Shown here: one piece after another, positions 3,398 through 64,000 of the stretch
Layout: every line of letters starts with the position of its first letter
How positions within the stretch are numbered: the stretch's first letter is position 1
Source: Stenocarpella maydis
Lineage: Eukaryota; Ascomycota; Sordariomycetes; Diaporthales; Diaporthaceae
Length of the DNA: 64,000 nt
Reading direction: 5' to 3'
Assembly (NCBI GenBank): GCA_002270565.1
Contig: NQMI01000006.1
Location: 816,583 to 880,582 of the forward strand
Program-made: the position numbers and the translations under genes
Notes under the pieces: model-generated
Databases searched by the model: none
Told to the model about the DNA's origin: nothing
What the model saw: only the letters and a program-made list of their open reading frames with translations

Positions 3398-5143
3398 ATG
3401 TCTTTCCCGAACAACAACGGCGGTCTCCCTGACGGATCCACTCCGATCAACGGTGGCGGCATGGACGGCCAATTTCCCCCTGCGCCTGCTATGCAGGGCC
3501 CTCCTTCGGGCCAGAATGCCGCAAATGAATCCGCACGTACCCTCTGGTAAGTCCCCAAAATGGCTGAAGGTCGACGATCACTCCTGACAAGGTCACCACC
3601 AGGATGGGTGAGCTCGATTCTTGGATGGATGAGCAGTTCATCAAGAGTCTGTACCAGAACCAGACCGGAGACAACGTCAATGTGAAGATTATCCGCGACC
3701 GCGGCACTGGGTAAGCTTTTACTTTTCTCCCCACCGCTAGTCGATCACTCCAGGCCTATTTGCCTCCCTCACAGCGCCTTTTCAAGGTATCGGTTAAGTG
3801 CTGTTAAGTTATGTCGCGTCTCCAGGGCCTCTACTGGTACCCATGAACCGATGAACTCTGGTATTCCTACACTTCTGTGGCTCTTTTAGTGCAATTTCTT
3901 TTCCCCATGTTTGATTGTCACTTCGTTCTTGCGCCTGGGATATGCTTTCCAAGTGTTTCGAGATATGACTTGGTTGCGCGGATAACTAACAAGTGTGTTG
4001 TAGCAACGCCGGCTATTGCTTCGTCGAGTTTCCCACCCCTGAGTCTGCCAACAAGGCCCTGACCCTCAATGGCACTCCAATCTCTGGCTCCAACGGTCGG
4101 CACTTCAAGTTGAACTGGGCCTCTGGTGGCGGCTTGGTTGACCGACGGTTCGTGGTCCTTGATCCCATTATTGCCACGCTTTCAAACCTGACTTGTGCAT
4201 TACAGTGACGAGCGTGGTCCCGAGTTCTCCATTTTTGTCGGAGACCTCGGCCCCGAGGTCAACGAATTCGTTCTCGTGTCTCTGTTCCAGGCTCGTTTCC
4301 CTTCCTGCAAGTCCGCTAAGATCATGACGGATGCCACGACCGGACAGTCGCGCGGTTATGGGTTTGTGCGCTTCGCCGATGAGAGTGACCAGCAGCGCGC
4401 TCTGCACGAGATGCAGGGCGTCTACTGCGGGAACCGTCCCATGCGTATCAGCACTGCCACTCCAAAGCAGCGGTAGGTCTTGGCTGCCCACCACAACTGA
4501 GACTTGTTTACTCATACCCATCTCTTCAGTAGGAACCAGAACCCCTACAACGGCGGCGGCCACGGCGGCCAGATGATGGCGAACCCCATGCAGCCTGGCA
4601 TGGCTTGGGGTATGCCTCAGCCTGGTCCGTTCTACGGCGGCGGCGGCGGCTATCCGGGTGCCGGCATGGGTCAAGCTCCCATGAACCAGTTCACTGACCC
4701 GAACAACACCACCGTCTTCGTCGGCGGTCTTTCGGGCTACGTCACCGAGGATGAGCTGCGCTCTTTCTTCCAGGGCTTTGGCGAGATCACCTACGTCAAG
4801 ATTCCTCCCGGAAAGGGCTGTGGTTTTGTCCAGTTCGTGCACCGCCACGCCGCCGAGATGGCGATCAACCAGATGCAGGGCTATCCTATTGGGAACTCTC
4901 GCGTCCGCCTTTCTTGGGGCCGCTCGCAGAACAACTCTGGCGTGGGTACTCCTTACCGTCCTGCTCCTCCTCCTCCCCACTACGGCATGACGCCTCATGG
5001 TGGTCCTGGCCCTTACGGTCCCCACCATTTTGGTGGTGGCAACCCTCCTCCTCCCCCGATGGCGGTGAGAATCTTCCCTCTGCCCCCTTGCCCCAATCCT
5101 CCAGTTCATCAAGGCCCCTGACTGATTCATTCCTCTGCAGTAA
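3398..5143 (+). CDS. csx1: Three-RRM RNA-binding protein, Csx1/Nam8/TIA-like (five introns)
   Basis: Post-transcriptional regulator that binds mRNA through three RRM domains. My model joins 3398-3546, 3603-3710, 4004-4147, 4206-4472, 4530-5064 and 5141-5143, giving 401 aa. RRM1 is at about residues 48-126, RRM2 at 141-218 (RNP1 RGYGFVRF, RNP2 IFVGDL) and RRM3 at 282-352 (RNP2 VFVGGL, RNP1 KGCGFVQF). A Gly/Pro/Met-rich linker joins RRM2 and RRM3, and the C-terminus is Pro/Gly/His-rich. Every junction is GT-AG and keeps the frame. The last exon is tiny: the stop codon TAA directly follows the final acceptor (5140). The acceptor of exon 5 is a tandem CAG-TAG (4529/4532), which can add or skip one Arg. 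Domain order matches fission yeast Csx1 and the budding yeast Nam8/Ngr1 group. Family assignment is strong; the exact orthologue name is less certain. Confidence 0.93.
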
Positions 5144-28901: not shown

Positions 28902-31415
28902 TCACAAATCCAATTGATCAGTCTGAAGTAAAGCATGTGGATCGAAACTGCAGCATTGGCCCTCACAATTCGCACCTGTCTCGAGTGGTCCTCTCGCACA
29001 CCGACACGACTGTTCCCTGAGGCCTGAACTGTTCTCACAGTAGCGATGACACCAATGCTCGCAGACCAACCACCTGGCCGGGTTCCCATTGACCTTCGCA
29101 ATCGTCTCATCCTGGCGTTCATTGTGGCTCAGACTGCCGTACATGGACTTGTTTGGATGGAACTTCAGACACAAGCTGCCACGCTCGTCCATGCCAGGCC
29201 GTGCAACATGGCTCATGTAACCCGCGAGAAATCTCAGGCGCTTTTCCTCGCCGTCGTACTCGGCCATCCACCGGAGGTAGTCCAAAGCAGTGTGCCCTTC
29301 CTGGTTCCTGGTGGAAAGTGCAGCCCCGTGCTCCTGCAGCAGCGCCATTACAGACTGGATGAGCGAGCCCCGGGCGTAGAAGTTGTATCGGATTGACGCA
29401 CCCTCCCAGAGCCGCATCAAGTTGAAGTTGCTGCCGTGGATGCACCGCAAAAAGGAAACCATGGCTGTGTCGCCGCCCCTGCCGACCTCTTCCGGGCTGA
29501 AACCGGCCTTGAGGAGAGCGTGCAGGATGCATGCGGCGTTCTTGCGTATAATCTCACAGGGTGTCGTTGACTGGGAGTCACGCAGCGCCATTGCCACAAA
29601 AGGCCCGAACCTGTTCAGAAATGCCGTTGGCCTGGAGGGGTGCCGGTTGATCCCCGACGCCTGCAGAATGGCCAGGGTTGTGTTACCGATATCAAGCGGC
29701 AGGGCTCCCGTGGTTACGAGACCTTCTGAGATCACCGTCTCAAGGGGGCTTGCCATCGTTTCCGACATTATGCCAGCCAGGATATCGGCTCCGTGTCTGA
29801 ACATGTTGGATACCATTTGCATGACCTCGCTATGAGGGCTGGCAATGCGAAGGCACCATCTGATAAGCCTGGCCAAAGGGGTGAGTTCGTCTGCATCCAG
29901 GCTGTTGACGTGTTCCGCCGTGCATCTTGCGAGGATAGCGTCAAGGAGTTCAATCCTGGAGGGTACCACCATGGAGTAGGGTGTTGATATTGATAGTGGT
30001 GGCCCTGTGCATACAGCGTGGAGCATTGTGAGCCGCGTGCCCGAGGAAGTCGTATCCACCTTGGCACCATGATCCAGCAGTAGCTTGGAGATGTTGAATT
30101 GGCCTCTCCTGGCAGCCCAAACAGCAGGCGTGGCCAGCTCAACGGCTGCATGGACGGTCCGGGTTGAAATGTACGACGCGCCCCTCGGGCAAGGGCCTGG
30201 GGTGTCTGGGTCCGCGCCATAGCCTAGGAGGAGCTTTATAATGTCATATCTCGCGTTTTCAAGCCCCTGGACGGCATTGCATGCAATCGAGAGTGGCGTC
30301 AAGCCCTCGTGGTTGGTTTCTTGGAGCCGGTCCGCGTATCCGTTCCGGAGGAGGAATTCGACGAAGTCGTAGTCGGGCACCGAACCAGCTGAACGTATGG
30401 ACAGCGCGGCGTGGAGAGCGTTATCGGTGATCCATTCCCGATCGTCATGGCCGCTAAACACCATTGCCACCCTTTGCGCACCGTGGGTCACCAGGACCCT
30501 GGCCGTTGCGTAGTTTTGTAGGCATATCGCCACATGGAGTGCTGTGTAGGCAACGAGGCAGTTTTTCGGGAGAGTATCCCCCCAGCTTGACGGCATGCTG
30601 TGCTGATGGCATTCGCATACCCGGACAGATGTCCCATCCATGTCTGCTCCTTCCTCAAGCAGAGCCTCTGTGATGGCAGGATTGTCGTGAAAGGCCGCAG
30701 TATGAAGCGGACTGCACCACCATCGAAATAAGTTGACGAAGGCAAATTTGAGTTCTGGCTGGTCCGAATCTTCCTGGAAAGTATGACCAGGAGAGGTGAC
30801 CAGACCATACTTGTACGAATCTGAGAGGGGGTCCAACGCACGTGTCACGCCCGACTTCGGGAGTTGCGGGCAGTAACGCTGGCTCCAGAGGGTGAACAAT
30901 GGCCCTGAATCCGCCAAAGAGAGCCTGGGTGAAGAGAACCACGCGGTACCCCAGTGCGAATGCTGACCCGCCAGAGGATGGATAGCCTCGTTCATGCGGG
31001 TGAGCTGTCGCCGGATAGCCATGGCGAGTTCCATGGTCGTGTTGAGGCGCCAACTGGCTGGGCGAAAGATGCCCGCACCGGCGCTCGCAGGTCGTCTTGT
31101 CCGCAAATCATTTGGGCTTGCGCCATTTGCAAGTGCTAACTGCAGGGTCTTGATGCGGTTCTGCTGCGCGGCCCAGTGCACAATGTGAAACGTGTTGTAC
31201 TTGCTGACGAGCTTGTACAGCTCGCAATTGAGAGTGCGGTGCATTTCCTTGTTCGTTCTGGCTAGAGCAGACACGTCGCACTCTCGTCCCATTGCGACAG
31301 CAATGCCAATGATGTCAAATAGAATCTCTGTTGGGAGGTCAAACAGGCAGGTCGGAGTCTCCGTATGTGTGCGCTCCATGCTGCCTATGGATGCTTGACT
31401 CGACACTGAAGCCAT
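28902..31415 (-). CDS. F-box-like and ankyrin-repeat protein with Cys-rich C-terminus
   Basis: Intronless, 837 aa, starting at the ATG complementary to 31413-31415. An F-box-like segment lies at about residues 22-65 (CLFDLPTEILFDIIGIA, then ALARTNKEMHRTL). It is followed by ankyrin repeats across most of the protein, for example HWAAQQNRIKTLQLALANGA, CSPLHTAAFHDNPAITEALL and GLTPLSIACNAV. F-box/ankyrin proteins are candidate substrate receptors of SCF ubiquitin ligases and are highly expanded in filamentous fungi. The last ~60 residues are unusual: a Cys/His cluster (CEHWCHRYC ... CRC ... C.GQCC) that could bind zinc. Codon use is less GC-biased than in the core genes. Function is not known. 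Confidence 0.8.
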   Translation of the reverse strand: MASVSSQASIGSMERTHTETPTCLFDLPTEILFDIIGIAVAMGRECDVSALARTNKEMHRTLNCELYKLVSKYNTFHIVHWAAQQNRIKTLQLALANGASPNDLRTRRPASAGAGIFRPASWRLNTTMELAMAIRRQLTRMNEAIHPLAGQHSHWGTAWFSSPRLSLADSGPLFTLWSQRYCPQLPKSGVTRALDPLSDSYKYGLVTSPGHTFQEDSDQPELKFAFVNLFRWWCSPLHTAAFHDNPAITEALLEEGADMDGTSVRVCECHQHSMPSSWGDTLPKNCLVAYTALHVAICLQNYATARVLVTHGAQRVAMVFSGHDDREWITDNALHAALSIRSAGSVPDYDFVEFLLRNGYADRLQETNHEGLTPLSIACNAVQGLENARYDIIKLLLGYGADPDTPGPCPRGASYISTRTVHAAVELATPAVWAARRGQFNISKLLLDHGAKVDTTSSGTRLTMLHAVCTGPPLSISTPYSMVVPSRIELLDAILARCTAEHVNSLDADELTPLARLIRWCLRIASPHSEVMQMVSNMFRHGADILAGIMSETMASPLETVISEGLVTTGALPLDIGNTTLAILQASGINRHPSRPTAFLNRFGPFVAMALRDSQSTTPCEIIRKNAACILHALLKAGFSPEEVGRGGDTAMVSFLRCIHGSNFNLMRLWEGASIRYNFYARGSLIQSVMALLQEHGAALSTRNQEGHTALDYLRWMAEYDGEEKRLRFLAGYMSHVARPGMDERGSLCLKFHPNKSMYGSLSHNERQDETIAKVNGNPARWLVCEHWCHRYCENSSGLREQSCRCARGPLETGANCEGQCCSFDPHALLQTDQLDL

Positions 31416-33327
31416 CTTTGGTTTGTTGTTAGAAGTGACGGCGGACTTGGTTTAATGGTAGATTTGATTGAGCGTGGATTTGGTTGAAGCTACACTTGGG
31501 CGACAGTGTGCTGTGATGAAGATTTGATTGATGAAGAGACGTCTCAGAAATAGTGTCTGGTGAATGGATAGATGCGTTATTAAGTCGTAAGATGAGTCGC
31601 TTGAGTTTGTCTGTTGGCAACGAGCCTTTAAATATATTTCATTTCGCCCAATAAATCCATTCGCTCCTCCTGAACGAACTAGTGACTATCTGCCAGTGAC
31701 ACTACGAAAGCTTGGATGTAACTATGTGGTACGCTATATCTTTAGCTAGCTACTATGAGAAACGATATAATGTTAGAAAATTTGGACTGGCTTGAAAATT
31801 GGTCAATATTCATAACATTTACTGTCTTCCGAAAAAGAAAAAGAAAAAGAAACCGAGCTAGGACCAACATTATATTTGTCTAGACCACACTAATCTGAAC
31901 CAATGCGACTAGTCTGAGTTTCCCCGAGACTATATCTGCCGTTAGGGCCACGCCTCGAAACAACCATGATTGCGACAGATTTTCACGGCTGGCCAGAGAC
32001 AGAGATTCAGAAACCGAAGGTTCTCGCTCGCACTGGCGGGCAACGAGGAAACACCGCGCCAGAGTGAGTCCTCGTTTTCAACCAGTGCTGCATCCAGTCC
32101 AGTATGATCGCCCAAGGGAATTTTGGGGTGCAACTGCTGCAGAATCCTGCATATGATGTCCCAGATTACTACCTTGGCCAGGACCACGGTCTACATTATA
32201 ATATGCTTAAGTATGTAGCGTTAGTATCTACCCGGGTACTCGTCCTTTCGCTATTCCCCATTAGCAGCGCTCCACTTCTAAGTTATAGATGCCGCATGAG
32301 GCTATCTGGAAATGCGAGCCAACTTTTTACCGCAAGTCATTCTAATCGTCTGCCGGGCTGTGGTGCTGCATTTTGCGCGTCCAACCCTAGATTACCTGGT
32401 TTCGTTCTTACCCCAGATTAGCAAGGGCAATTTTCCCCGGGTTTTGCTGTTGCGTTGACGTCAATCTCCCCACGATTACATCTGGTTTTAGCTCGGACTT
32501 TTGACAGGAAGAGTGGATTCGGAAAATACAGACCCTCCACGAGAGGAGATAGCCTCGAGCCGGGTCCTAACAGGCCCCACGAGATGCGCAACTCGCTGAC
32601 CGCGCCCAGCCCGGATGATACCTAAGTTGATAATCTCAGGCATTCCAGGTAGATACCTAGGTGCCAATGGCTCCCGGACGCTGAACCAAATGAATGTGCA
32701 GTGTATTGAGCGAGCCACGCTTGTACTTCCAGTAACGCGTTGCGTAACGCTGGACGTTGGCCTGGAGATAGTTCTATATTAAAGGCGCTATGCCTCAACC
32801 CCCTGTACGTTACGTTACGTAAGTACCTAGGTGACTTTGGCTGATACTGATTAGTAATAGGGCATAGAGAGATTTTAGTAGTGTTCCAGGCCACGGAGCA
32901 GAGCAGCCGGGGCAAAGTGTGTTCAGCTGCTGACGTGAGGAAAATACTGAAGTAGACTGCATTCGGCTCTAAATCCCCTTACAAACCACCATAGCGCTGA
33001 ATATTTAGGACAATAATACTTCACAACAAAAATATATGCTTAATTCTTTTATAATAAATTATTTAGCTATGAAATTTTATTTCAAAATATTAAATTTAAA
33101 AGACATAACTTATAATTAAACTAGGTAAATAGATAGAAGGATTTTAAGGTCCTAATTCTGGTTCTAAGCTGAATGCAGCTTAATCTTTCATGCTGACTCT
33201 GAACAGTGGACGAAGGCACTACATGTGCATCTACACGCCCAACGACGAACATGGGTAACTTGCCACCATCAACACCACCACCAACACCAACAGCAACAAC
33301 ACTAAATAACAATCCACACCATCATCA
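31416..33327. other. Intergenic accessory DNA, in part AT-rich
   Basis: No gene is seen. A GAAAAA microsatellite lies at about 31832-31852. CCTAGGTA-type palindromes occur around 32650-32835. A strongly AT-rich patch at 33000-33125 looks RIP-like. CAACA/ACC trinucleotide-rich sequence at 33262-33325 is probably the leader of the next gene. Confidence 0.45.
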
Positions 33328-42365: not shown

Positions 42366-43700
42366 ATGCCGGGTCTGGCTGACAAAATCTACGAGGGCCT
42401 TCTCCATAACCAGGCCAAGAAAAACGTGGAACGATTATCGCTCTTCGAGGCTCCTCCGCCCCCGCCCCCACCGCCTGCTGATGTGTCGTCTCCAGGTCCG
42501 CAACCGCAATTCGAGAAGCTGTCACAGGCGGTTACCTACTCCCCGAGTGAGACGAAACCCCCGAGCCTTCGGTCTAGACTCATGTAGTAGGTTGCGACGT
42601 GGCTAGTAAAATGGATCAGGAAAATCGGGTAATGCTCGGTGCTCCGCGCATCATGGATTTTGGTTTGGCCCTGAAACTCCTGGAGACGTGGAGCCACGAT
42701 ATCATGGAAAACATCAATGCGGCCAAGCGGGCACAGGTCTTTGGGGGGAAATACGACATCAACTGGCAGACGACAATCCTGCCCTTTCTGGAAAGCATAG
42801 GCATGTATCTCCGTGGTGTTCAATCGCACGGGGCCTCCTGGGCCAAGTGCCGAGACTTCAGAATGGGAGGCCGGCAGGACTCCCAGCTTGAATCCGAGGC
42901 CTTAGCCCTATACCGAGAGGCCCACACAGACACCGACAAGCTTACCAAAGGCTTGGGGGATGCGCTTCCTCCCAACCTGCGACCTCTCCGACCTCTGCCC
43001 TGACGGCCAACCCCACTGAGACGGCCCGTTCTGCGGCATATTCTTCACGACCAAGGAGTAGACAGACAAGGCCTTCATCGGCAGAGCATTTAAGGGCACC
43101 AACCCCGTCAACCTCAGGGAGTGGGCCGTCGACTTCCACGACCAGCTCGCCCCGGCGGCTCAGCAGTAAGTACCTCGGCGGCAAGAGGGTCCCGGTGTCC
43201 AAGGGGGTGTATACAAGCCTCTTCGGGGATTATAGGGGCAAGAGCATCGCCTCGTACCAGCAGATCCTCAACGCGGTACGGGATGCCGCCACGAGGCTGC
43301 ACAACACGACCGGCGAGGCGGTGCCCGTCCACGCCACGGGCCACTCCCTCGGTGGCTCGTACTCGCCGTTCTGCTACGCGCAGCTCCTGGTCGACGTGCC
43401 GCCGTCGTGGCCCGCCGCGGGCGGTGTGGTGATGGGCAACGAGAGTATACCTTCGGGTCGCCGCGCCTCGGGTCTGGCGAGTGGTCTCGGCTGGTGGCTC
43501 GGCTCGCCGGGGTGCAGAAGGGCCGGTCGTGGCGCATCGTCAACAACAACGACCTCGTGCCCTGTGTGCCCCCGACCAAGCTGCAGCACAGGCAGACGGA
43601 CTTCCACCATGTCGGCACGGGTGTCCGGATCTAGCCGTACAAGCACCCCGTGCGGCTCCGACCGAGGTGGACAAGCCGAACCCAAAGCCATACCCCATCT
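42366..43700 (+). pseudogene. Class 3 lipase pseudogene
   Basis: Remains of an alpha/beta-hydrolase lipase (Lipase_3 family). Recognisable pieces in order are an N-terminal frame (42366-42587, MPGLADKIYEGLL then a Pro run), a second frame (42599-43003, including INWQTTILPFLESIGMYLRG and GASWAKCRDFRMGG), and CGIFFTTKE. Next come FIGRAFKGTNPVNLREWAVDF, the nucleophile elbow ATGHSLGG at about 43334, YTFGSPRLGSGEW and the catalytic-His region DFHHVGTG near 43605. Stops (TGA near 43016, TAG near 43060, TAG at 43633) and frame changes (near 42970, 43165 and 43440) break it. All catalytic motifs can still be read in one frame or another, so the loss looks fairly recent. Confidence 0.8.
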
Positions 43701-45169
43701 ATAGCATCCTGTACCTGGTTCCCAGCCTGATCATGGTGCTGGACCACTGTGAGTTATTAATTATAGGTTCACTACTAGTAGTATCTGGCTGTTGAGCAGC
43801 GAGGGTCTCACTAACGACCTTGTCCTCAGTACCTCACAGATATCATGATTCACTACAGTTTGCAATTAATCATAGCGGCAGGGGTCTTAAAATAAATCCA
43901 GCTAAGGGTGGCCTTAACCAGATATCATAGTATGCTAATATGATAAAACTACTATACTGTAGTATTTTATCTTTTATTAGTAATCTAGCTAGCTGGGTAT
44001 GTTAAGGCTATGTTTATAATTAGGTATGTTTCAGGTTAGCTTACGAGTTGTATATTTAGGACGGTCTGAAAATAAGTGGTTGAGGACGGCTCACTTAGAT
44101 GAAACTGATGGGGAAATCAAAGATGGAATTTAAGTTGTAATTTGAATAGGATTGGTTCTTTAAATTCCTGCTTTACAATGAAGTTAATCTCCTTGATATG
44201 CCACGCTCGGAAACTTAACAGATCTTCGTAAACACTATGTAGACGTTCGGAGGCCGCCCTGTTACAGCACCGTCCTCGGACCTTGCATCAAGTACACAAT
44301 CTCTACGCCTGGAAGCCTAAATCTAGACTCAGTCAAGTAGTTACCAATAACGCATTGGCGTTTGAAAATCAAGAATTCGTCCCTTCTTTGCTCATTTGAC
44401 TATACAGACGTGCCTGGTCCTTCGTTTTGAATTTCAGTTCAAAGGCCTTCAAATCACAACTACAAGCACTCATTATCCAATGAAGTCACAAGCACCTTGC
44501 CCGCTACGATCACCGCCAGATTCCATCCCTGGAGAAGCTAGTGTGTAGATATCTGCGTAACAGCTTCGCCGGAGCTGGCGCAGACCAGCAGCAACGGGTT
44601 GGAAATGTACTTGTTATCGGGGGTCGCGATAGTAGAAATGCAGGGCTCAGAGAGCACACTGCAGAGATAGCTATGCCATTCTTCTAGGATGATATTTGTT
44701 ATGTAGGTGAGGTGGCTGGAAAAAGATGGGGGAAGCCTATTTGGAGGACTTACTTCTTGACATGGTTGCAGACTCGATGGGATTTAAACCAGCTTAGTTT
44801 AATGGTTTCAATTTTAATGATATCGCATAATCGTGGCACCGTGGCATTCCCCAGACAGGTTTGCTGTCTTTCCCCATGTTGACTCTTTGGGAAGGTACAT
44901 ATATATAGAAGATGCGGAGTACACGCCGTGTCCACCCGAATTTGAGGACGGTGTTGTCGGGTACGAAGTGGCACTCGAGCAGATGACACAGGACCTAGAC
45001 TTTTCTGTTCTTGTTTTGTTGCGCCTATGGTTATTCAAATCTCACACAATACACATAGGCGATTATGGCCACTGGGGAACGATTGGTCTTTGGGCAATCG
45101 AAACAAAGAAAGGATCCAGTGGGCGCCTCAGGTAGGGGACGACTTAGACGAGGACTGATTATGTCAAGG
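43701..45169. other. Intergenic DNA, partly AT-rich
   Basis: No gene is seen. The part from 43850 to 44100 is AT-rich. A plus-strand frame at 44833-45135 (100 aa) has no recognisable feature. Confidence 0.4.
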
Positions 45170-49543: not shown

Positions 49544-52189
49544 TCACTGCTTAAGCGCTTCTACAAGGACATCCCAAGCATGCTGTCTTCTATCCCCCGC
49601 AAAGTTTGGGCTCAGGTCCTTCCAGAGAAGGCCTGGGTGGATGTAGGAATACCTGGTCGTGTCCTGGCCCTTCTTGCTGACGTGCCCCAACACCTTTCCC
49701 ATCCCACCAAGTTCCCGCAACTCGTCGAGGTCAACCGAGTGCACCCTCTGGGCCTCCTCCCTCTCTTTCCTGCACATGTACTGCCATGCGAACCCGAGTA
49801 TCAAAGCAGCCATCGCAGCGACGGCAGGCGTGGCAAATGACGTGCCCTCGGCCAGCCTGAAATCACCGCCCTTGGCCTCGGGCCACAGGGTGATGACATT
49901 CTCGCCCACAAACATGAAGTTATGGGGCGAGAGATGCACGTATGGCGGCGTGAACCCAGACGTCCGAGACCCCCACTTGTCGCACGAGTGCACGCCTATC
50001 GCAAGCTCCGGGTCCCTGGCTGGCCAGGCTGCGTGTTCGACATTGTTCCCGCCGTTGGACATGGCCGCAAACACGAGGATCCTGGAGTCGCGTGCTGCCT
50101 TAAGCGCTGCCTTGACCTCCCTGTAGCTATCGTGAAAGCCAAATGACATGTTGATGATGTCTACATTCTGCTCCCGGGCCCAGTGTATGGCCTTTGCGAC
50201 GATATCTTGCTGAGGTCGCTTGATAGGGTTGTCTGTTGGCGGGGAGCGGGTCGGCGCGCCGCGGTTGATGTCCCCTTCGCATATGCGAGCGATGTATAGG
50301 TCCGCTCTTGGGGCGAGCCGGAGAATTAGCTCTGCAACCTGGGTTCCGTGGCCGTCGACATCTTTCATATCGTCCTTCTCCGTCACTGTTCTGTGACCTG
50401 TGAAGTCTTTACAAGTCTTGATTCTTTCATACTGTGATGGTTCATCTTTGGACCATACTGGTGTGTTACCATCGAAACGCTTTACCCTCGGCTTTTCAAA
50501 GTGCTTGTGAACCACGTCCAACCCAGTATCTAGGACTGCAACTTTGACTGGTCGGTCGTACTTCCTCTTGAAGTCGAAATTGTCGTCCCAAAGGCGCTGT
50601 AGCATCTCATATGAGGAGCCCATGCTGGAGGCTTCGAGACTAACAGATTACATATATCAGCTTCTGAACGGATTGACATAGCCTACAGCTCAGACTTACT
50701 TCGTGGATGGGAGAGAATAGAAAGTTCCATCGAATGAGCCACCCGCGCCGGGTACATGAGGGTCTGACGGGACCGAAGGCTCAGATTCAGCTCGTTCGAC
50801 ATCAGATTCAGAGTTCTTATTACTGTCGTGGTCATTTCCGGGTCCCTGGTCGTCTTGCTGCCCGCTGAGATTGGCGAGATGATCCTTGGCCCTGGCGTAA
50901 AGATCGAGAGCTTCATTTCGCTTCGTTTCATTCGTCAGATATTGAGCATGTTGCCCCAAAACGTCCAAACTCTTCGCATGGCGCCCAACCGCGGCGATCC
51001 CAAAGGCAGTGACTCCTGCGGACGAGCGGGAGGTCTGAGATCCCTCGGACGCCGCTGGATTAGGGACCTGGCCGGTGACAGCAAGTATGTCTGCTCCATT
51101 TTCTAGCAGCACTCTCAGGGTTCTCGGCCTCCCTTTCTCTGCAGCCAGATGTAAAGGCGTCCACTTTTGCCTGGCAGTCCTTGCATCTACCACCGCTCCA
51201 CGGTCCAGAAGGATCTTTACAATGCCAGGTTCTCCCCCCCAAGACGCATGATGAATCGGCTTCCAGCCTTTTTTCAGGCCTTGGGATTCGATGACCTCAG
51301 AAGGCTTGTTGACCATAAAGCCCAGTATAAACTCCACGAGGGGTGCAGGTCCCTTCTCCGATGCCCATGATAGCATGGCCGACTTATCGATCTGCCCCTC
51401 TGTGGTGACGAAACGAGACAGCTTCGGCAGGATTTCCCTGGTCTGCTTCCCACAGGTCTCCCACTTGGCCAAGATATCAGCCATTGTGACTCTGGCATTA
51501 TCCCCCAGTGCTCTTAATGAATCGAACGCGTTCTTGCCATCATTGTTCCTGAGAGATGAATCTGCACCAAATGCACACAGCGCCCTGGCGTTCGAATGCT
51601 TCGCAGCCAACACTGCACCCTGCAGTGGTGTGAGCCCTTTTTTGTCCTGGGCGTTGCGATCCGCCCCGCGAATCAACAGAATGACGAGCAGATCCTGTTC
51701 GTTTCGTTTCTCCTTCTGGGCCGCCTTATGCAGGGGCGTCCAGCCCTCTCTGGTCTTCGCTTCGAGGTCGGCGCCGGAGTCAAGCAGGGTCACTACGACA
51801 TCGTGGCGGGAGCTCTCGGCGGCGAAGCTGAGGGGCGTGTATCCCCCCTTGGACCGGGCATCCAAGCTCGCCCCACGTGAGATGAGCAGCTTCACAATGT
51901 CGTTCTGCCCATCCTGCGCGGCCACGTGCAGGGGCGTCCGGCCGCGGTCGTTCCGCGCCTCGATACAGTCTGGCGAGGCCCGGATGATGCGCGCTGCTCC
52001 TTCTACGTCCTTGCGGCCGACCGCGTCGTGAAGGGCCTGCCCAGGGGTTCTGACCCTGAACGCGATCGAGGGTGATGGACTGTTGGCGGCGCTCGGGTCA
52101 TCACCCTCTGGAGCCTGGGGACTCGGAGTCCGACGTGTTCGGGAGCTCTGGGCCTCGGGCTTGAGTCCGTTTCCTCCTGAGGGCGACAT
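49544..52189 (-). CDS. Ankyrin-repeat subtilisin-like (S8) serine protease, HET-Q2-like
   Basis: Fusion of an N-terminal ankyrin sensor and a C-terminal peptidase S8 domain. Exon 1 is 52189-50700 and exon 2 is 50624-49544, joined by a 75-nt intron with a GTAAGT donor and CCAG acceptor; total 856 aa. Ankyrin repeats (about 8-9) run from residue ~50 to ~400, for example GRTPLHVAAQDGQNDIVKLL and KWTPLHLAAEKGRPRTLRVL. The protease part begins near 515. The catalytic triad is complete: Asp at about 529 (VAVLDTGLD), His at about 589 (VDGHGTQVAE) and Ser at about 759 (EGTSFATPAVAAMAALIL). The oxyanion Asn is at about 687 (AAMSNGGNN). There is no signal peptide or propeptide, so it should act inside the cell. 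It is divergently paired, 429 bp apart, with the gasdermin-like gene, the setting known for het-Q1/het-Q2. Likely role: protease that activates the gasdermin on an ankyrin-sensed signal. Confidence 0.9.
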
Positions 52190-52618
52190 ATCGGGCGTGG
52201 CCAGAACTGGTTATGATTTTGAATCGACCCAACCTGTAATGTCCAAGGCTGTTCTCAACTTTGCTCTCACAAGAGAAGTTGTCACTTGTTTCGTCTCATG
52301 CTGACAGCACTTGAGAATGTGCTCTAAGCCGCAAAAAGTAAACTTGATAACTACCTACTATCCCCGCTGACAGGATTGGTGTTGGGGGCAGGACGGAAAC
52401 CCCTGCTTACTTGCTGCGCCACCCTTGTAGGCTGGGGGATGTGGTGTAACCGCATCAGAGTCTATATCATGTGTTCGATATTTCTTAGCTCTTACTTCGA
52501 AAAGACACAAATATCTCCGACCAAATCCAGCAATGATATCCCGAACGGCTTGGTTCACTCATCCCTCAACCAGAGCGTATTCGGGCTGCTGAAACAGTGA
52601 CCAACGTGACATCCTGCC
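52190..52618. promoter_or_regulatory. Shared divergent promoter of the protease/gasdermin pair
   Basis: 429 bp between the two start codons. No known operator is recognised. The shared interval suggests coordinated expression, which is inference only. Confidence 0.6.
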
Positions 52619-53428
52619 ATGACGAACTTGTCGGGCCTCAAGGGAGACAAGCTCTGGCATGTCTACCGCTACCCCCAGAGGCCAAACACGCTCATGGTCC
52701 TCGGCAGCATTCTCACCAAGGCAGACGACCTGGAATCCTCACTTAACCACGAAAGCGGCATCGAGGCGTTCCCCCCGGACAAGATCCAGGACCAGACTGG
52801 GGCTGTCCGCCTTTTCATGAGGTCTGGACTTTCCAAGACGCATGGGGGAAGAGTCAAGGCTCTGCTGCCATTCTCTCCCTTTGCCAGCGCAGGAGGCGGG
52901 GTGGGGGTGACCTCTTCGCAGAGTGTGGATGCGACTTTCGAGGCTTCTGGAGTCCGGGCTGTAGCTGTGTTGCCACAGACAGCCCAAGATTACGTGGAAA
53001 GAGCCTTGAAGACCCCCAAGGTGGTCGAGTACGTTCGGAAGGGTATATTCTCAGAACCCCTGTACATGATTGTCGGCGTTGCCACATGCAAAAGGTTATC
53101 TGGGGGCGATGGTTCCGGTCAGGGCAGTTCCGCATCTATTGACCTCGATGCCAGTGTTGCTGCTGGAGCGGTCGAAGCTGGCGTCGGGCTCTCGAGAGAA
53201 AAGGGTTCTTGGGCAGATTCGGAGCGGGAAGTGATCGAGGAATGTGATTTCGCATATCGTGTGAGGGAGTTTCAGTACTCTCGAAGGAAGAAGCGAATCA
53301 AAAAGTCGGCCAACGTGACGGATGGGGCAATGTTTGGGAACGACACTTCAAAGGAAGAGGGCGAATTTGAAGAGGTGCCTGTGTTTGAATATTTTGAAAG
53401 CGAGGATGAAGACGTTGATTCTATATGA
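52619..53428 (+). CDS. Fungal gasdermin-like cell-death protein (HET-Q1/RCD-1 type)
   Basis: Intronless, 269 aa, no signal peptide. The fold pattern matches the gasdermin pore-forming domain. An N-terminal strand (about 11-33, KLWHVYRYPQ, then LMVLGSIL) is followed by a first hairpin with small residues (91-119). Next are an amphipathic helix (121-141), a strand ending in LYMIVGVATCKRL (148-160) and a second Gly/Ala/Ser hairpin (168-200). A final strand then ends FAYRVREFQY (211-220), equivalent to the AFRV strand of mammalian gasdermins. After this come a basic patch (222-229) and an acidic tail (about 245-269). HET-Q1 has a short inhibitory tail of this kind that is removed by the subtilisin HET-Q2. 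Size agrees with HET-Q1 and RCD-1 (roughly 240-280 aa). The neighbouring divergent subtilisin supports the call. I have no alignment, so distant homology remains to be tested. Confidence 0.78.
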   Translation: MTNLSGLKGDKLWHVYRYPQRPNTLMVLGSILTKADDLESSLNHESGIEAFPPDKIQDQTGAVRLFMRSGLSKTHGGRVKALLPFSPFASAGGGVGVTSSQSVDATFEASGVRAVAVLPQTAQDYVERALKTPKVVEYVRKGIFSEPLYMIVGVATCKRLSGGDGSGQGSSASIDLDASVAAGAVEAGVGLSREKGSWADSEREVIEECDFAYRVREFQYSRRKKRIKKSANVTDGAMFGNDTSKEEGEFEEVPVFEYFESEDEDVDSI

Positions 53429-53933
53429 GATGAGGGCAAGAGCGGACTACTTGTTATCAATTATCCCGAAAGCTTAGATGCTGCAACAGCAATCCCGGGA
53501 TCACCATGGGAGCAGCGGCAAGTTGAACTTCCTAATGTTGACGAGGACTGGAGATGTTCAGTTGGCGTAGGCAAGGGAGGGGACCCGCGTGTATCTCAAG
53601 GTTGTACCAATGCGAACATTCACCCTGCAAAAGCACATCATAACATGACACACATGCACCCACCGGCACCCACCTGCACCCACCTTCATTGGGATGGCAT
53701 TGCAGAGATGCCATGGCTGGGCTCACACACGGTGGCCTCGGTTGCACAACACGATGATGAGCGTGGTCACGGATGCCGATCTTGGGTGCGGGGAAGTTGC
53801 TTACATGTACCGGGGCACAAGAACATACCTACAAGTACCCACATTCAGAGTTGGAATATGAACAACCGAGGGTCCTGAACCAAAGCCTCGAGGAGACATT
53901 TCGGCAGACTACTGATATCCCCAGCATACAACC
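53429..53933. other. Intergenic DNA after the gasdermin-like gene
   Basis: No gene is seen. A CACC/TGCACCCACC-rich short repeat lies at about 53650-53685. Confidence 0.4.
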
Positions 53934-54371
53934 ATGTCTCGCCGCCTCGAGGGAAAGGTTGCCATCGTCACGGGCGGCGCCTCCGGCTTCGGCAAGGGCA
54001 TCGCCACCAAGTTCGTGCAGGAGGGCGGCAGGGTCATCGTCGCGGACCTGTCGGCCGAGGCCGGCCAGGCGCTTGCCGGTGAGCTCGGGGAGTCGGCCAC
54101 CTTCCAGCGGGCCGACGTGACCAGGCGCGAGGACTGGGAGCAGCTGCTCCGGACGGCGACGGAGCGCTTTGGCGGCCTGGACGTGGTGGTCAACAACGCG
54201 GGGACGACGTACGCGAACAAGCCGACGGAGCAGGTGACAGACGCCGACTTCGACGCGTGCTTCACCGTCAACGTCAGGTCCATCTACCTGTCCACCAGCG
54301 TGTTGCTGCCCTACTTCCTGGGGGGCGGCCGCCCGGGGAGCTTCGCTCACTCGGTTCGAAATAAGATATGA
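53934..54371 (+). pseudogene. Truncated short-chain dehydrogenase/reductase (SDR)
   Basis: The N-terminal half of a classical NAD(P)-dependent SDR is present: the TGGASGFGKG cofactor-binding motif (residues 13-22), a VADLS acidic residue after strand 2, an ADVT motif and VVNNAGTTYANK. It ends in the helix before the catalytic region (SVLLPYFLGGG). The frame then runs into unrelated sequence and stops at 145 aa, against about 250 normally. The catalytic Ser and YxxxK are missing, so it cannot be an active SDR. The loss coincides with a change from GC-rich to AT-rich DNA near 54340, which suggests a breakpoint or insertion. Confidence 0.85.
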
Positions 54372-54426
54372 ATGGATCAATTTGACACTTTCCCTCCTTG
54401 GATCATAAGTTGCTAACCCAGTATGA

Positions 54427-54471
54427 AAGTGTGCGTACGGTACCCAATATTAATGAGTACCGCACACACTT
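54427..54471. repeat. Imperfect inverted repeat
   Basis: AAGTGTGCGTACGGTAC is matched, with a small internal difference, by GTACCGCACACACTT; the loop is about 13 bases and AT-rich. It lies just past the SDR breakpoint and could be part of an inserted element's end. Confidence 0.5.
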
Positions 54472-56408
54472 GAATGCCGTCATGATAGCCCCTTGCAAGC
54501 TATTTTCATGGACGGGATACCAGATAGTAAAGGTCGAGTTGACCAGGCAAAATTGTGAGTCAACCGGGTTGGTTGTAGTGGGTTGTATTCCCCACATTTA
54601 TAAAGAGGCTGTCCTTTAGCACTTAAGCCCTACCTAGGTAGTTATTCTACCAGTTAACATCTACCTACCCAGCTCTTCTACCGGCTAGGTAACCAAGAAA
54701 GTTGCCTAGGATACTATTCTTGAAATCATAGCACTTGAAGTCTCAGCTCCCAGGGTGGGGGCACAGCCTCATGACTATTGCTCCAGGAGGTCATCTTTTC
54801 ATTCCATAGCTGCCTCTTCATCATGCATCCTACTCAGCATTGTCACGTGGGAAGTTAATACCTTAATACTCATCACACTCAGACTGGCTCAGGAATGCGT
54901 AACACGTGCATGCTATAAGGACTACTGTATCTTTCATTCCAAAGCATACCTAAGTATTTGAGACGTTAGCCAACGTTTCATAAAGCTTACTCATTGGACA
55001 AGATCACATTCATGAGTGCGCCAATAATGACAAGACCCTATGTCCTGGTTCTCCCTGACAAGACTCGTTTATTATGCCGTTGTTGCAGTAATACGTCAGC
55101 TTCAATGTGGTTGAGCACTGAGAATGCTGATGAGTAGCCATTTCGTCGGAACACTTAACCGCTTCACACTTGAGCATGCGTTAAAACTCGGCACGCAGGC
55201 ACTAAAGCCGGTTTCAAGCAAGATACTACTGCTCATTAAATTAAACTATAGCTCCTATTAGAGACCACATGTTGACTTTGAGTGTTTTGTAGTCTTCCAT
55301 AGCTGGTTTCTTCACGCAGCTACACCCCGCGTGAATGTCAGGACATGGCAAGCACTTTGGGACGATGTAGATACTTTGCTCGCCCTGATTTGAATATTCT
55401 GTCCTAAATCGATACCATGTGGAAACCCCTGCCGGTTGTTACTCGCTCCGCTCGCTCCTCCGGCGAACCCCCTCCACGCCTCCCAGTAGCGCCCTCCGTA
55501 TACCTAGAGAGAGGGTCCCCTTCCTAGGCCCCCTCTCCCTCTTCGGGTTAGGGTTCTCACCTAGACTAGGGGTTTTTCTTTGTATTTACTCCAGTCAATC
55601 AGTATACAATCATTAACTGGCCTCTGATTAGTCTAAGTTTTGAACTACTATATCTGGAAAAATAAAACCTACCCCTCCTAGTTGGTTGTTAACTAATCTG
55701 TCTCCCGCCTCTAATTTATATAATTTGTATTAGAATATTATTAACAAGAACTTAACTGCGCTGCAAGCAGCGACAGCAGGGATAAGTGCAGATAGGAGTA
55801 ATAGGGCCGAGCTAATACCCTAGGGGTTTAAGAAAGAAGGGGCCCTTTAGGTAGGAAGGGGGCCTTCTAGGGAGTAAGAAGCCCTCCTTATTTAGGTAGG
55901 TAGGAATAAGATCCCTATAGGAAGTAAGAAGCCTTAAGGGGATCTAAAAAGGAAGGGGGTCTTCTAAAAGGAAGAGGCCTTTTAGGGGGGGAGGGGAGGA
56001 AGGTGGGTCTGGGAAGAAGGCTTGTGCTCCCTTTTATCTTATCCCAGATTCATATCTAATCTAACTTTTGTATTAAACCCAGTAGTAGGAAACTTTATAG
56101 ATTTAACTTAAGTATAGATAGGAGCGTTCCTTATAAGTACGGCTTACTTCTATATATATTTAATAATAAGCCTATTAGTATAATTAAAGCTATTATTAAC
56201 TTTATTTTTATATATTACTTAAATAATTAGAAGTTATATTATTAATTTAAGCCTTTTTTAAGAGGTTGCATGTATGCTAATAGCCCTAGGATAAGGTCAT
56301 GCTGGCATACCTATTTAATTATTAGCTTATCCACTTTGCTGCTTCTGCCGCCCTAGGATCATCTATACAAGATGGGCCCTCTCCCTCTAGATAACGAGCA
56401 AGAGGGCA

Positions 56409-56530
56409 GTTGGGCAAGTTAGTAGGTAGGTAGTTGAGTAAGTAGGTAGTTGAGTAAGTAGATAGCTGGGTAAGTAGGTAGCTAGGCAAGTTAAAGAGTA
56501 TGTAGCTAGGCAAGTTGGTAAATAGGTAGT
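56409..56530. repeat. Minisatellite, ~16-bp unit
   Basis: Degenerate tandem units of the type TAGGTAGTTGAGTAAG, alternating with TAGGTAGCTAGGCAAG. About seven copies. Confidence 0.8.
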
Positions 56531-58874
56531 TAACAGTATTATTAACTGTTATTATTATTGTTATAGGTTAATTGTTGGGGGTTCCGCGTTTTGATGCAAA
56601 TTAGAGGCAGCAGACGGATTAGTTGACAACCGACCAGGGGGGGGGATAGGTTTTGTTTTCCAAACACAGCGTCTGGCGCGTGCGCGTGTGTGTCAAGATC
56701 CCGTTCATAGACTATTCTGGACGAATAGCAAATGCTGGGGTACAGCTTCCTCGATTTACCAAGAAACATGCACAACATTGCCAGTACGTGATAGAGGTCA
56801 GCTGCTTCCAAGTGAAAATTAACCGGGAAGCCCAGAGCCCCCAGCCTTACTTAAATTGCCATGTTTTGTCGAAGGCTAGGCGGGCCGCGATGTCAAAATC
56901 GGTATGGGTGATGGTCACACATCGAGATAAGCAGGCTGTCGTAAGACCTTGCAGTCACTCGCGCGAACCAAAAGAATTTGGCTGACAGTGGAAGCCGTTG
57001 GCAAAGCCGCGTCGAATGATGCCCGCCAAGTGGAACCACGGCATCTATAGACGTTCCGTCTGGCCCAGCACACAACGCCTGCAGTGGCGGCCAAGTAAAA
57101 CCGGCTGATGTGTTAGCAGAGCATCCTCTACTATAACAATAACTGGAGTTCCTTATGTACCATTCAGTCAAACGCCTGCCAACCGATAAAGAGGACGAAG
57201 CTGTGCTAGAGCATGAAGTGGTGGTGGCCAAGCGGCCAAGAAGGAAGTCAGTACCTTTAACATTGAAGCTAGCCTCTTTCCTGTTCATATAAGCTTGGGT
57301 CTTTACGCAATGACTCGAGCACTGGGACAGGTCGCTTATCAAGTCCTAGGTATGCCTGGGATCGGTCCTGAATCAGACAACATATGCTGGTAAAACCACG
57401 CGTACATCATTATAGCCCACGGGAAGGAGAATAATTTGATGCATGCCTCTGCTTTACTGTTGTCTGCGTCTACACCAGTACTATGTTATTTACTCGTCAT
57501 GCTTGTCTTTGTCCGTGGGTGCCGCACCAATAATTACGAGTCAACAAGGCCGGCGGGAATAAGGTCGCTCAACAGTTATATGAACAAGAACGGCACGTCC
57601 CATATCGGAAACAGCCGTGCCGCCGCCATCACCAATAAGCCCGAAACTCGGTGATACTTTCCGGCTTGGCGCCGAACCAAACACGGCTCAATCTACATCT
57701 GAGAGCAGTGAAACATTTCGAGCCGTGATCCAATTGGCCCAAAACATGCTGAGACAAGTGGGCCGCGTGTGTCGTCGAGAGCCCACGGCACAAGGAGAGG
57801 CTGCGTCGGAGGCATAGGGAGGGGACAAAGACCCTCTCGGTCAGCCCTTCTGGGCCATTTGGAGGCTCTTGGGCCACTCCGTCAAGGTTCATGTCTACGT
57901 CGACCATCCGGCATGCGCGCCCAGCGGGCTCGACCACCCCATCTCCCCTGAGGCTACCGGATGGTGCCCCCCGTCTCAAGTTTGCCAAATGGCAGCTCGA
58001 GCGCCCGCCGAGGGCAAGCTGTCGCCGGCCAAGGTCACCCCGCCAAGTTCGCCAAGCCAGTTCAAACCCGAAAGGTCGGTTTGCGCCTTCATGCTCTGCT
58101 GTCGCCTCGACGGCAGTACCGCCCTCCCAAGACATCTTGGGACAAGTCGGCAGCCCTTCTGGGGGCCCGCCATCTGAAAGAGTAAAAAAAGAAACCGCCG
58201 AACCTCGAACAGCTGGGGACGGGTCGGGTCCGCGAGAAGTGATTGGCAGTGACGAAGGTCTTGCTTCAATGTCTCTACCCTCCCCCCCCCCCCCCAGGCC
58301 ACCGCTCGGCGCCGCGGTAGTCGCATGCGCGCCAGACGGGCATCCTCAGACACGCCGGTGTGGGAAGGGCCGCGGCGTGGACTTGCCTTGCCTGCGGGTC
58401 TCTTGAATGTAAACCCTGCGGTCGCGAGAGCCAAAAATAGTAACAGATACCAAGCAGAGGACACCCGTGGTCTGAAGTTTAATGTCGGATCCGGGGCCGG
58501 ACGTTGATTTGATTTGGCTGTCACACTTGCGAAGCTATCCTGGGCCACCTGGGGCCGTTGATGTTTCTTGGTGCCCTAGGCTTGGAGGCTTCATTATTCA
58601 TGTGTTCGCCCTGTTGCTGGGTGGGCGCAATGCAAGGAGGACGCAGATCACCCTCCGCCGGCCCGGCCTACGAGATGGGATTATAATAAATATACTTCAT
58701 CCTGCACCTGCTCGGACGATCGACGCGCCATCAGACGGCGGCTGACGACTCTCTTCTTAGACACAGCATATACTCCGTCATTGCTGGAGTGGCTGTGCTC
58801 TGCTGGCATACTCAGAGCCGCAACTCTCCTCGCAACTCGGTGGACCCGGGAGTGGAGTGAAGCACAGAGTAGCG

Positions 58875-60634: not shown

Positions 60635-61660
60635 GGAGGTGGATTGCGGCGACTTCGGTTGTTTGCGATACTCACGATGCCTCGTGTAGTCGCGTTGCGG
60701 CACTAGAGAGCTGGTTGGGGGGCAACATATGCATGAATTTACCAACGGCCAAGACTTTGCCAGCATACATTCGGAGCACAAGGCAAGTGGCCAGAACATG
60801 TAGCTGTACGATATGGGTACCTCGGTTGTCGCGAAGTTCCAATCAGGCTCGATCCGTTCCGCCGCATGTTAGGACGGCTGGACGGGTGGATAAGCACTTA
60901 GGCCCGGAAAGGGCTTCTGAAGATGATGTGTCTCGGGCGGCATCCTGATGTGTCAGCTGATAATAAGCCTCATTGGCCTGCTTGGGTGGGATTCGTCGGT
61001 TGTGATTTGCATGTGACAGCCCAAGGCTGCGGGGAGGCGGATGCGACAGTGTCAATGGGGAACTGCAGGGTGGGATGTGGTCAGTCACCTGCTACTTGCG
61101 GTAGTCTTCACCGTGGTGAGTAACGCCGGCGCGGGGTGTTCAATGCCGGGCTTCTGCTTACAGCATCTGGCCGTAGAAGGGCCAATGGTGGTGCGGATCT
61201 ACGCGTGGTCGATCGCCAGTCTGTGCTGAGTGGCAGCGGCAGCGACGGTGGCATTCTTGACAGCTTTTGTCCTGGGAAGACAAGAACCAGGGACGGGTCG
61301 AGAATAGCGAGCCGGCTAGGCCAAGTCAACAATGGGTTACCGGTAGGCCGGGTCGGGCATATGGTAGTATTCTAGAAGCGGAATTAATGCGGCTGGACCA
61401 GTTTAATCTCTTATCTTTAACAACTGTACACTAAGCTAGAGCGGCAAGAGGGGTTGAGAGAACAAAGAGAGACGGATGGGCTAGAGGATGGTCGGCTAAA
61501 ACACCTTGCGTAGTGGGAGATATGGGAGAGGCGGCAAAGAGGCCGGGTAATTCCCAGTTGCCCCTGAGGATTTCTGCAGTACGTAGAGTAAGGGCTAGAA
61601 GGGCAACATAGGCCAGTATAATGTGTAACTTTCAAGAGTGGTTACAAGGGTGCCGTTAAG
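60635..61660. other. Intergenic DNA after the transporter
   Basis: No gene is seen. GC content falls toward the AT-rich block that begins at about 61660. Confidence 0.45.
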
Positions 61661-61851
61661 GTCTTAGCATTAACACTAGTCCTTAACTAGCAGTATTTTA
61701 AGTATATAAAAGGACTTATATATGTATATATATTAATATTAAGCCTTGGCATATACTTCTTATTTTAGTATAATTTGCTATTATCATTAGTTATATTTAA
61801 TATTAATTTATAAAAATATAATTAAAGTTATAATAGTTTACTATATAATAT

Positions 61852-62030
61852 ATAATTAATTATATGACTATATAACTATATATATATAGTTATATAGTTA
61901 TTATACAATTATATAATTAATTATATGACTATATAACTATATATATATAGTTATATAATTAATTATATGACTATATAACTATATATATATAGTTATATAG
62001 TTATTATATAATTATATAACTATATAAGTT
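61852..62030. repeat. Tandem AT palindrome array
   Basis: Three copies of a unit with the core GACTATATAACTATATATATATAGTTATATA, starting near 61866, 61927 and 61969. Each core is a near-perfect palindrome. Confidence 0.8.
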
Positions 62031-62278
62031 CTAAAAAAAGAAATATCTTTAATTATATGTTTTTAATATTAAATCTTTAAAAGTTTTTAAACTAATTTAA
62101 TTTAATTAGTTTATTATTTAATTCATTATTTTACTTATTTCTAATTATTAAAAGAGATTATAATAAAGAACGGTGTAAATATTTATCTTAACTGATTAAA
62201 AAATATAAATAAATGTACTAATAAAAATAATATAATTTATTAAGTAGTAGCTAGGTATTATATATAGCTATCTTAATT

Positions 62279-62616
62279 TTATATATAAAAAACATTTATA
62301 CTAACTCTATTAAAACCTTTAAACTAAGCCTAAAATGAATATAAATTTTAGTGTACCTTAAAAGTTTTATTGTTTGGCTATAGTTTCTTTTACTTAAATT
62401 TAAGACTTTTTTTACACTTGTTATATTAGAAGACTAAAATTATAGGCGTTTAAAATAAATTTCTTCTTAAATAATTAAACTGAAAAAACATCTCAAAATT
62501 CTAAAAAGAATTCATTAACTTATTTATTTACTTATAATTAAACCCTGAAATTTTCGTTTATTTTGGGCCTAGTTTGAAGGTTTTAGTAGGGTATGCACGG
62601 ATGTTTTTTACATAGG
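62279..62616 (+). mobile_element. MITE-like element, copy 1 (RIP-mutated)
   Basis: About 338 bp with ~75-bp terminal inverted repeats. The left end (62279-62355) contains AAACTAAGCCTAAAAT and the right end (62540-62616) its inverted counterpart ATTTTGGGCCTAGTTT. The interior is AT-rich and non-coding. Confidence 0.7.
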
Positions 62617-63157
62617 AAAGCAGGATGGCTACTTCCTAGTCATGGCTACTTCCTAGTACCCTATGTTCATAAAATTATAAATAAATAATAATATAATCTT
62701 AAACTAAATCTTAATTATAATAATATATTAAATAATAAATAGTTTACTTTCTTAAATATTTCTAAAGCTTAATATTATTTATTAATAAAGTATTGAAATA
62801 TATTTTTAACAAGAACTAAAGAATTATTTAACTCTAAAAATAAATAAATAAAGTTTAAAAATTAAGTAAATAACTTAGTGCTAAATTTAAATGGAAAATA
62901 TTTGAAAATAACAAAATAGTTGAATAACAAGGCTAAAGAAATAAAGTATAAAAAATAATAAAATAATTTAATAACTTAATTAAATAAATAAGGTTAAAAA
63001 ATAAGGATATAGTTTAATAATAACCCTAACTGAATAAAGTTTTTAAAAAGAAAATCATAACTAAATTCTAAGAATAAATAAATAGAGTTAAAGATATAAT
63101 ATAATTAAAATCTTGAAAAAAGTAAAGAAATAATTTAATAATAATACTATATAACGT

Positions 63158-63331
63158 AGGGTACCAGGAAGTAGGTAGGACCAGGAAGTGGCTAGTTTTC
63201 AGCAAATTTATCAACTTTAGGATACCCTAGCACCTACCTGGGGATAAGTAAGTAATAAAAGTTAGTACTAATTAGTACTAACTAACATAGTGTACCAGGA
63301 AGTAGCGGGGACTAGGAAGTAGCCACCCTAC
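63158..63331. repeat. CTACTTCCTRGT motif cluster
   Basis: The motif ACYAGGAAGTAG (or its complement) occurs twice near 62627-62660 and four times between 63168 and 63325. It marks a small repeat linked with the MITE flanks. Confidence 0.6.
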
Positions 63332-63336
63332 TTTCT

Positions 63337-63671
63337 CATATAAAAAAAGTCTATGCATACCCTGATAAAACCCTCAAACTAGGCCTAAAATAAACGAAAT
63401 TTTCAGGGTTTGATTATAACGATATAAATAAGTTAAGGTATTCTTTTCAGAATTTCCACATCTTTTTTTACTTAATTATTTAAGAATTTTAATCTTAAAC
63501 TCTTATAATTTCATTTTTCTGATATAGCTTATGTAAAAAAGATTTAAAACTTAAGTAAAAATAATCATAGCTAAATTATATAAATTCTAAGCTGCCCTGA
63601 AATTTCCATTCTTTTTAGGCTTAGTTTGAAGGATTTAGCAGGGCCGCCCACAGATTTCTTTTATATATAAA
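63337..63671 (-). mobile_element. MITE-like element, copy 2 (inverted)
   Basis: About 335 bp and in opposite orientation to copy 1, matching it along its whole length when reverse-complemented. Terminal inverted repeats are at 63337-63412 and 63593-63671. The inner flank (63284-63331) also matches the inner flank of copy 1 in inverted orientation, with repeated CTACTTCCTAGT motifs. Confidence 0.7.
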
Positions 63672-64000
63672 ATCAGGATGATCACATGTGATACCTGGCC
63701 AATTCCTGATAAATCACTCTATACTTAATTATTTAAATCTAATTTATTATAAATTTAGAGTAGTTAGAGTAGGTATAGTGCTAGTCTAAAGAGAGTAACC
63801 TTTAGTAGAAATAATATAGTTTATATTAATTCATACTAATTAGGCTAAATTTATCATTATTCATTTAAATTCTAACTTACTAAATTCTTTTTTATTCTTT
63901 TATAAGTTATTATAGTATACTTAGTCTTATTATAATTATTATATTATTATTTCATTAATTTACTTTAGGTTAAATTCTTATTATTATTAACTATTTTATT

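Follow-up and report, generated by a model that had tools for sequence, protein, structure and literature searches.

We analysed a 64,000-nucleotide stretch of the Stenocarpella maydis genome (contig NQMI01000006.1, positions 816,583 to 880,582; hereafter the window, in whose numbering positions are given). It carries two divergent genes, one predicted to encode a fungal gasdermin (fGSDM) and the other a protein with ankyrin repeats and a subtilisin-type (S8) protease domain. A first-pass annotation made from the sequence had placed both genes correctly, at 52619-53428 on the plus strand and at 52189-49544 on the minus strand. They lie head-to-head with 429 bp between their start codons. The features of the pair are as follows.

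52619..53428, plus strand: fungal gasdermin gene, HET-Q1-like, single exon, 269 amino acids (PDB phmmer, Smith-Waterman and profile searches)
53333..53335, plus strand: codon of Phe239, the predicted residue before the activating cut (profile alignment to the HET-Q1 chain end)
53336..53425, plus strand: tail predicted to be released and inhibitory, 30 residues, net charge -12 (role predicted by analogy with HET-Q1)
52190..52618, no strand: gap between the start codons, 429 bp, presumed shared two-way promoter (from coordinates; promoter role presumed)
50700..52189, minus strand: protease exon 1, ankyrin repeats and low-complexity linker (Pfam Ank and Ank_2; splice model)
50640..50699, minus strand: protease intron, 60 nucleotides, GTAAGT...TTAG (in-frame junction of the exons; stops if read unspliced)
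49544..50639, minus strand: protease exon 2, S8 domain with Asp534, His594, Asn692 and Ser764 (Pfam Peptidase_S8; PDB)

The gasdermin open reading frame (ORF) begins with the ATG at 52619, the first in-frame start after a stop at 52607. When the single frame was read in 1000 mononucleotide shuffles, none reached 269 codons and the longest open run was 182. A phmmer search of the PDB with this sequence alone matched residues 8-235 to 9uv9_A, a chain described as 'fGSDM/HET-Q1 pores', at E=3.2e-32. Three matches were obtained up to E=10, the other two being esterases (0.12), and RCD-1 was not among them. The Smith-Waterman score against the HET-Q1 pore chain was 304, while none of 300 shuffles exceeded 57, and the two sequences were 35% identical in a MAFFT alignment. 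A two-sequence profile (A1) made from the gasdermin and the HET-Q1 chain gave 12 PDB matches at a limit of E=10. Two passed 0.001, the HET-Q1 chain itself and the RCD-1-2 chain 8jyz_B at E=2.7e-9; a second RCD-1-2 chain, 8jyy_A, was reached weakly (0.026). The earlier gasdermin-like call had been made from the strand pattern; homology to HET-Q1 and the profile match to RCD-1-2 now bear it out. No model matching the protein was found in Pfam (E<=1), NCBIfam (E<=1) or PADLOC (E<=10). Relatives were also sought in genome_contigs and viral_contigs, where none of 17 and 38 pattern matches, respectively, was confirmed, an outcome expected since the gene is fungal. Judged by its homology, the 269-residue protein is a fungal gasdermin.

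The neighbouring gene has two exons and one intron, and the spliced product is 861 amino acids long. The first-pass annotation had recognized the gene and given a length of 856 amino acids, which requires the intron, left unstated there; our model gives 861, and 856 is obtained on inspection with an alternative in-frame AG 15 nucleotides further downstream. Exon 1 matched Pfam Ank (2.1e-42, five passing stretches) and Ank_2 (3.7e-40), and by eye its ankyrin region consists of about five repeats, a break and then about three more. Exon 2 matched Peptidase_S8 (6.2e-22, profile positions 3-255 of 288), and the best of its 71 PDB matches at E<=0.001 was subtilisin BPN' (3f49, E=1.1e-14). The triad described earlier as intact was indeed found, with Asp534, His594 and Ser764 present together with the oxyanion residue Asn692; these four stand in the catalytic motifs. 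In the alignment to BPN' the His, Asn and Ser regions fall within the significant stretch and the Asp region falls in a separate, insignificant one. The Asp534 region lies inside the Pfam S8 match, and the aligned BPN' variant has no Asp at that position. The protease was also considered as an NLR (NOD-like receptor), which was ruled out when neither exon frame gave a match to NACHT or NB-ARC (Pfam, E<=1). A second ankyrin gene of the window stands apart from the pair, at 28902-31451 on the minus strand, as an 849-residue open frame that contains ankyrin repeats and whose N-terminus, by eye, resembles an F-box.

The homology to HET-Q1 extends to the region in which that protein is cut. HET-Q1 of Podospora anserina loses about 5 kDa through the subtilisin HET-Q2, and section 20 of PMC12881547 places the cut 'likely' at F238. 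In the profile alignment the end of the HET-Q1 pore chain, ...DWTGKVLF (chain residue 232), aligned without a gap to ...NVTDGAMF (residue 239) of the window gasdermin. Because the chain end aligns in this way to ...TDGAMF239, the reported cut site of HET-Q1 probably corresponds to F239 here. Subtilisins cut well after large hydrophobic residues. The net charge is +4 over residues 1-239, with a basic stretch of +8 at residues 211-230 before the cut, and -12 in the remainder. A cut after F239 would thus release an acidic tail of 30 residues, and by analogy with HET-Q1 this tail may be inhibitory. The alignment-based cut site, which is falsifiable, and the 30-residue tail are new in this analysis, which also adds, as described below, that the genome has one clear gasdermin and probably a decayed second pair.

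The same region bears on whether the gasdermin could act without being cut, its allelic variants pairing as in RCD-1 while the protease has another substrate. According to PMC12881547, RCD-1 is activated by the pairing of allelic variants and is not controlled by cleavage, and our profile does reach RCD-1-2. However, RCD-1 is described in PMC11760362 as having no inhibitory C-terminal domain, whereas the window protein has both an acidic tail and a HET-Q1-like cut region; HET-Q1 is also far closer by single-sequence comparison, in which RCD-1 was absent from the matches. With tail and cut region present, an RCD-1-type, cleavage-free mode was rejected as the principal interpretation, and we regard it as highly improbable.

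It is very likely that the pair is a two-gene fungal cell-death module, in which an fGSDM is coupled to a HET-Q2-like (Q2L) protease acting as the sensor. Features of the Q2L class seen here are an S8 domain with Asp, His and Ser, an fGSDM neighbour, and ANK repeats beside the protease domain. A cell-death module had already been proposed for this locus, and the proposal is supported by the gasdermin homology, the S8 catalytic residues and the cut region aligned with HET-Q1. The 429-bp gap presumably serves both genes as a shared two-way promoter. Neither gene has the ratios typical of repeat-induced point mutation (RIP): TpA/ApT and (CpA+TpG)/(ApC+GpT) are 0.42 and 1.32 in the gasdermin gene and 0.48 and 1.36 in the protease gene. 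In the mechanism that we propose, the gasdermin would wait in the cell, kept inactive by its short acidic C-terminal tail, and the ankyrin repeats of the protease would bind or guard a cue. When triggered, the subtilisin domain would cut the gasdermin after Phe239 (motif GAMF) and remove the last 30 residues; the 239-residue body would then bind acidic membrane lipids, form a ring-shaped pore and kill the cell. We infer the cleavage by the neighbouring protease, the exact cut, the inhibition by the tail, the trigger and the role of the module, in allorecognition or in defence.

Several points weigh against this interpretation. The single-sequence alignments end four residues short of the proposed cut; it is the profile that carries the alignment to the end of the HET-Q1 chain. 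Equating chain residue 232 with F238 of full-length HET-Q1 assumes an offset of six. Profile A1 includes the HET-Q1 chain, so its E-value for 9uv9 is circular and was set aside, leaving the single-sequence match to 9uv9_A as the one independent match. An AlphaFold model made from the single sequence without relatives had a predicted local distance difference test (pLDDT) score of 35 and was unusable; for this reason the gasdermin fold is predicted from homology to the solved HET-Q1 chain.

A related question is whether this locus actively controls heterokaryon incompatibility (allorecognition) in the species and varies from strain to strain, as with het-Q1/het-Q2 or rcd-1. The closest solved relative, HET-Q1, is an incompatibility protein, and gasdermin genes are listed among the three families most often recruited for allorecognition in PMC10197012 and in section 20 of PMC12881547. 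In the latter section het-Q1 and het-Q2 are described as idiomorphs, that is, different genes at one locus, whereas the window genes coexist in one genome. The protease, moreover, carries sensor-like repeats and has 861 residues against 388 in HET-Q2, which fits a guarded death module better. Because both genes coexist and the protease bears a sensor-like repeat domain, a guarded death module appears to be favoured over an incompatibility pair of the het-Q type; an active allorecognition locus is conceivable, though unlikely.

The rest of the genome was searched as an assembly of 312 contigs (53.5 Mb); very divergent gasdermins could escape such single-sequence searches. With the window gasdermin as query (E<=0.1) there were two matches, the gene itself and C309:166356-166616 on the minus strand (E=0.07, 26%). 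The HET-Q1 chain, used as query with a limit of E=10, found the window gene at 6.0e-31 and a chance-level match on C23 (4.3), and did not find the C309 ORF. The S8 frame of the window gave three matches at E<=0.001, namely itself, C309:165325-165981 on the plus strand (1.9e-18) and one on C11 (1.3e-5). On contig C309 the end of the S8 frame is at L011:4701 and that of the gasdermin-like ORF (L011:4749-5492, minus strand) at 4749, so that the two stand tail to tail, 47 bp apart.

L011 (G000:C309:161500-171400), 3601-5492: two convergent genes, probably a second gasdermin/S8 pair, flanked by a lipid-droplet hydrolase gene and an MFAP1-like gene

Neither thing that had been named beforehand as speaking against a gasdermin module, a fold unrelated to gasdermins or homologues never adjacent to proteases, was seen: by sequence the protein is a member of the gasdermin family, and both gasdermin-like matches of the genome, one strong and one weak, adjoin S8 genes. 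The C309 ORF scored 79 against the window gasdermin, where 1000 shuffles gave no more than 59, and the motifs FAYRV and GAMF are common to the two. Its score against HET-Q1 was at chance (42, equalled by 41 of 1000 shuffles). It was not reported when L011 was searched by tblastn with the window gasdermin or HET-Q1 at E<=1, and when it served as the query itself, the PDB yielded no gasdermin up to E=10. The C309 protease is collinear with the window protease over 343 columns at 28% identity. It has six in-frame stops and a Tyr in place of the catalytic Asp; four clustered stops might sit in an intron, and three open pieces match S8 (9.1e-5, 2.5e-5 and 0.002). A 91-residue frame upstream gave no match, and the C309 protease shows no repeats. 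We conclude that C309 probably carries another gasdermin/S8 pair, now decayed, whose protease is short, the gasdermin half being assigned because of the shared motifs and the adjacency, not because of a strong score.

The two pairs could be ordered in time. PMC10197012 describes a 'pseudogenization' route leading from a guarded death module to a self/non-self locus. The intact, sensor-bearing window pair would then be of the precursor type of het-Q systems and the broken, repeat-less C309 pair a later, reduced form, and one genome would show two stages of that route. We regard this as a long shot.

As a caspase-like partner of the gasdermin, CHAT was ruled out, since the genome gave no CHAT match at E<=0.001. 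NACHT gave 23 matches, 22 of them over the cut-off; counted exon by exon, this is a lower bound, and NACHT-type receptors are probably present in the genome. One NACHT match, C309:143151-143621, is part of an 863-residue open frame and stands about 22 kb away from the decayed gasdermin pair.

The surroundings of the pair were examined through the 27 stop-to-stop frames of at least 220 amino acids in the window, 22 of which were scanned against Pfam. Beyond the gasdermin gene lie a gene fragment and a repeat, given here for context.

53934..54343, plus strand: truncated short-chain dehydrogenase adjoining the pair (Pfam adh_short 1-125 of 195)
54344..57165, no strand: repeat starting where the dehydrogenase breaks off, 2.8 kb, with a copy on C255

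The adh_short match comprises residues 14-137 of a 151-residue frame (53916-54371), and the homology stops near 54326. The missing part was looked for on the far side of the repeat with a crude motif search; it turned up three matches, and none of them was convincing. The repeat is 97.4% identical to its C255 copy (L017:2638-5469) over 2854 columns, with 20 mismatches and 41 gap openings, and its ratios are RIP-like (TpA/ApT 1.30, (CpA+TpG)/(ApC+GpT) 1.02). Because mismatches are few alongside RIP-like ratios, RIP may have preceded the copying of the repeat. The pair had been described as sitting among decayed genes. That holds in part, for the adjoining dehydrogenase; of 20 frames scanned besides those of the pair, eight match Pfam, and seven of the eight lie at 7-31 kb. 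On the left side the genes recognized by Pfam include ECM29, an isocitrate/isopropylmalate dehydrogenase and a kinase.

These surroundings raise the alternative that at least one gene of the pair is an inactive relic, or that the genes have come together by chance in a region rich in repeats. The truncation of the adjoining gene beside the repeat and the broken state of the related S8 gene on C309 speak for it. However, both frames of the pair are complete, the intron is canonical, the ratios are not RIP-like and the catalytic residues are intact, and we consider a relic or a chance neighbourhood very unlikely.

Elsewhere in the window, positions 61500-64000 are very AT-rich (GC 0.15-0.28 in 500-base windows) and have RIP-like ratios. 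The segments 62235-62667 and 63284-63714 are inverted copies of about 430 bp with 76.7% identity. At 42892-43704 on the plus strand a lipase-like GHSLGG was seen by eye in a frame with no Pfam match at E<=0.001; it is perhaps a decayed or intron-split lipase gene.

With the pair read as a gasdermin module with its protease sensor, it can be set beside published systems. A fungal survey summarised in PMC10197012 section 15 counted about 1900 fGSDMs in 400 genomes, about 63% of them beside S8 genes and 19% near CHAT. The same section reports that, among some 1500 HET-Q2-like proteases, about a third fall into 18 architectures and that most of those annotated carry ANK, TPR or WD40 repeats, with which sections 20-21 of PMC12881547 agree. 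A CHAT protease is named as a het gene in Aspergillus fumigatus in PMC11138114. The window pair is a new example of this published class; its arrangement is common and not new in kind. It leaves knowledge of the class unchanged and adds a well-defined gasdermin/ankyrin-subtilisin example with a precise predicted cut site, F239. The stimuli of such sensors are called a major open question of the class in sections 20-21 of PMC12881547, and this genome, which has a single clear gasdermin pair and gave no CHAT match, offers a clean setting in which to ask it. The window gene is the sole clear gasdermin by the single-sequence genome searches, which would make for simple genetics.

Compared with HET-Q1/HET-Q2 of Podospora anserina, the window pair is alike in having a gasdermin homologous over residues 8-235, a subtilisin partner, a cut region ending in Phe and a short C-terminal tail. 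It differs in that its protease, at more than twice the length of HET-Q2, bears ankyrin repeats, and in that both genes occur in one assembly instead of as idiomorphs. The tail has 30 residues, against about 40 in HET-Q1 (278 minus 238; PMC10989679 gives 278 amino acids for HET-Q1 and 388 for HET-Q2). RCD-1 of Neurospora crassa (8JYY/8JYZ) belongs to the same gasdermin family by profile and differs from the window gasdermin in having no inhibitory C-terminal domain, where the latter has its acidic tail. A gasdermin/protease system of Podospora anserina described in section 21 of PMC12881547 follows the same two-gene logic, the window protease being a subtilisin instead. The fGSDM/Q2L clusters with repeat-bearing S8 proteases (PMC10197012 section 15, PMC12881547 section 21) likewise have a gasdermin beside an S8 protease that carries ANK repeats; none of the features tested distinguishes the window pair from them, and it is among these that it belongs.

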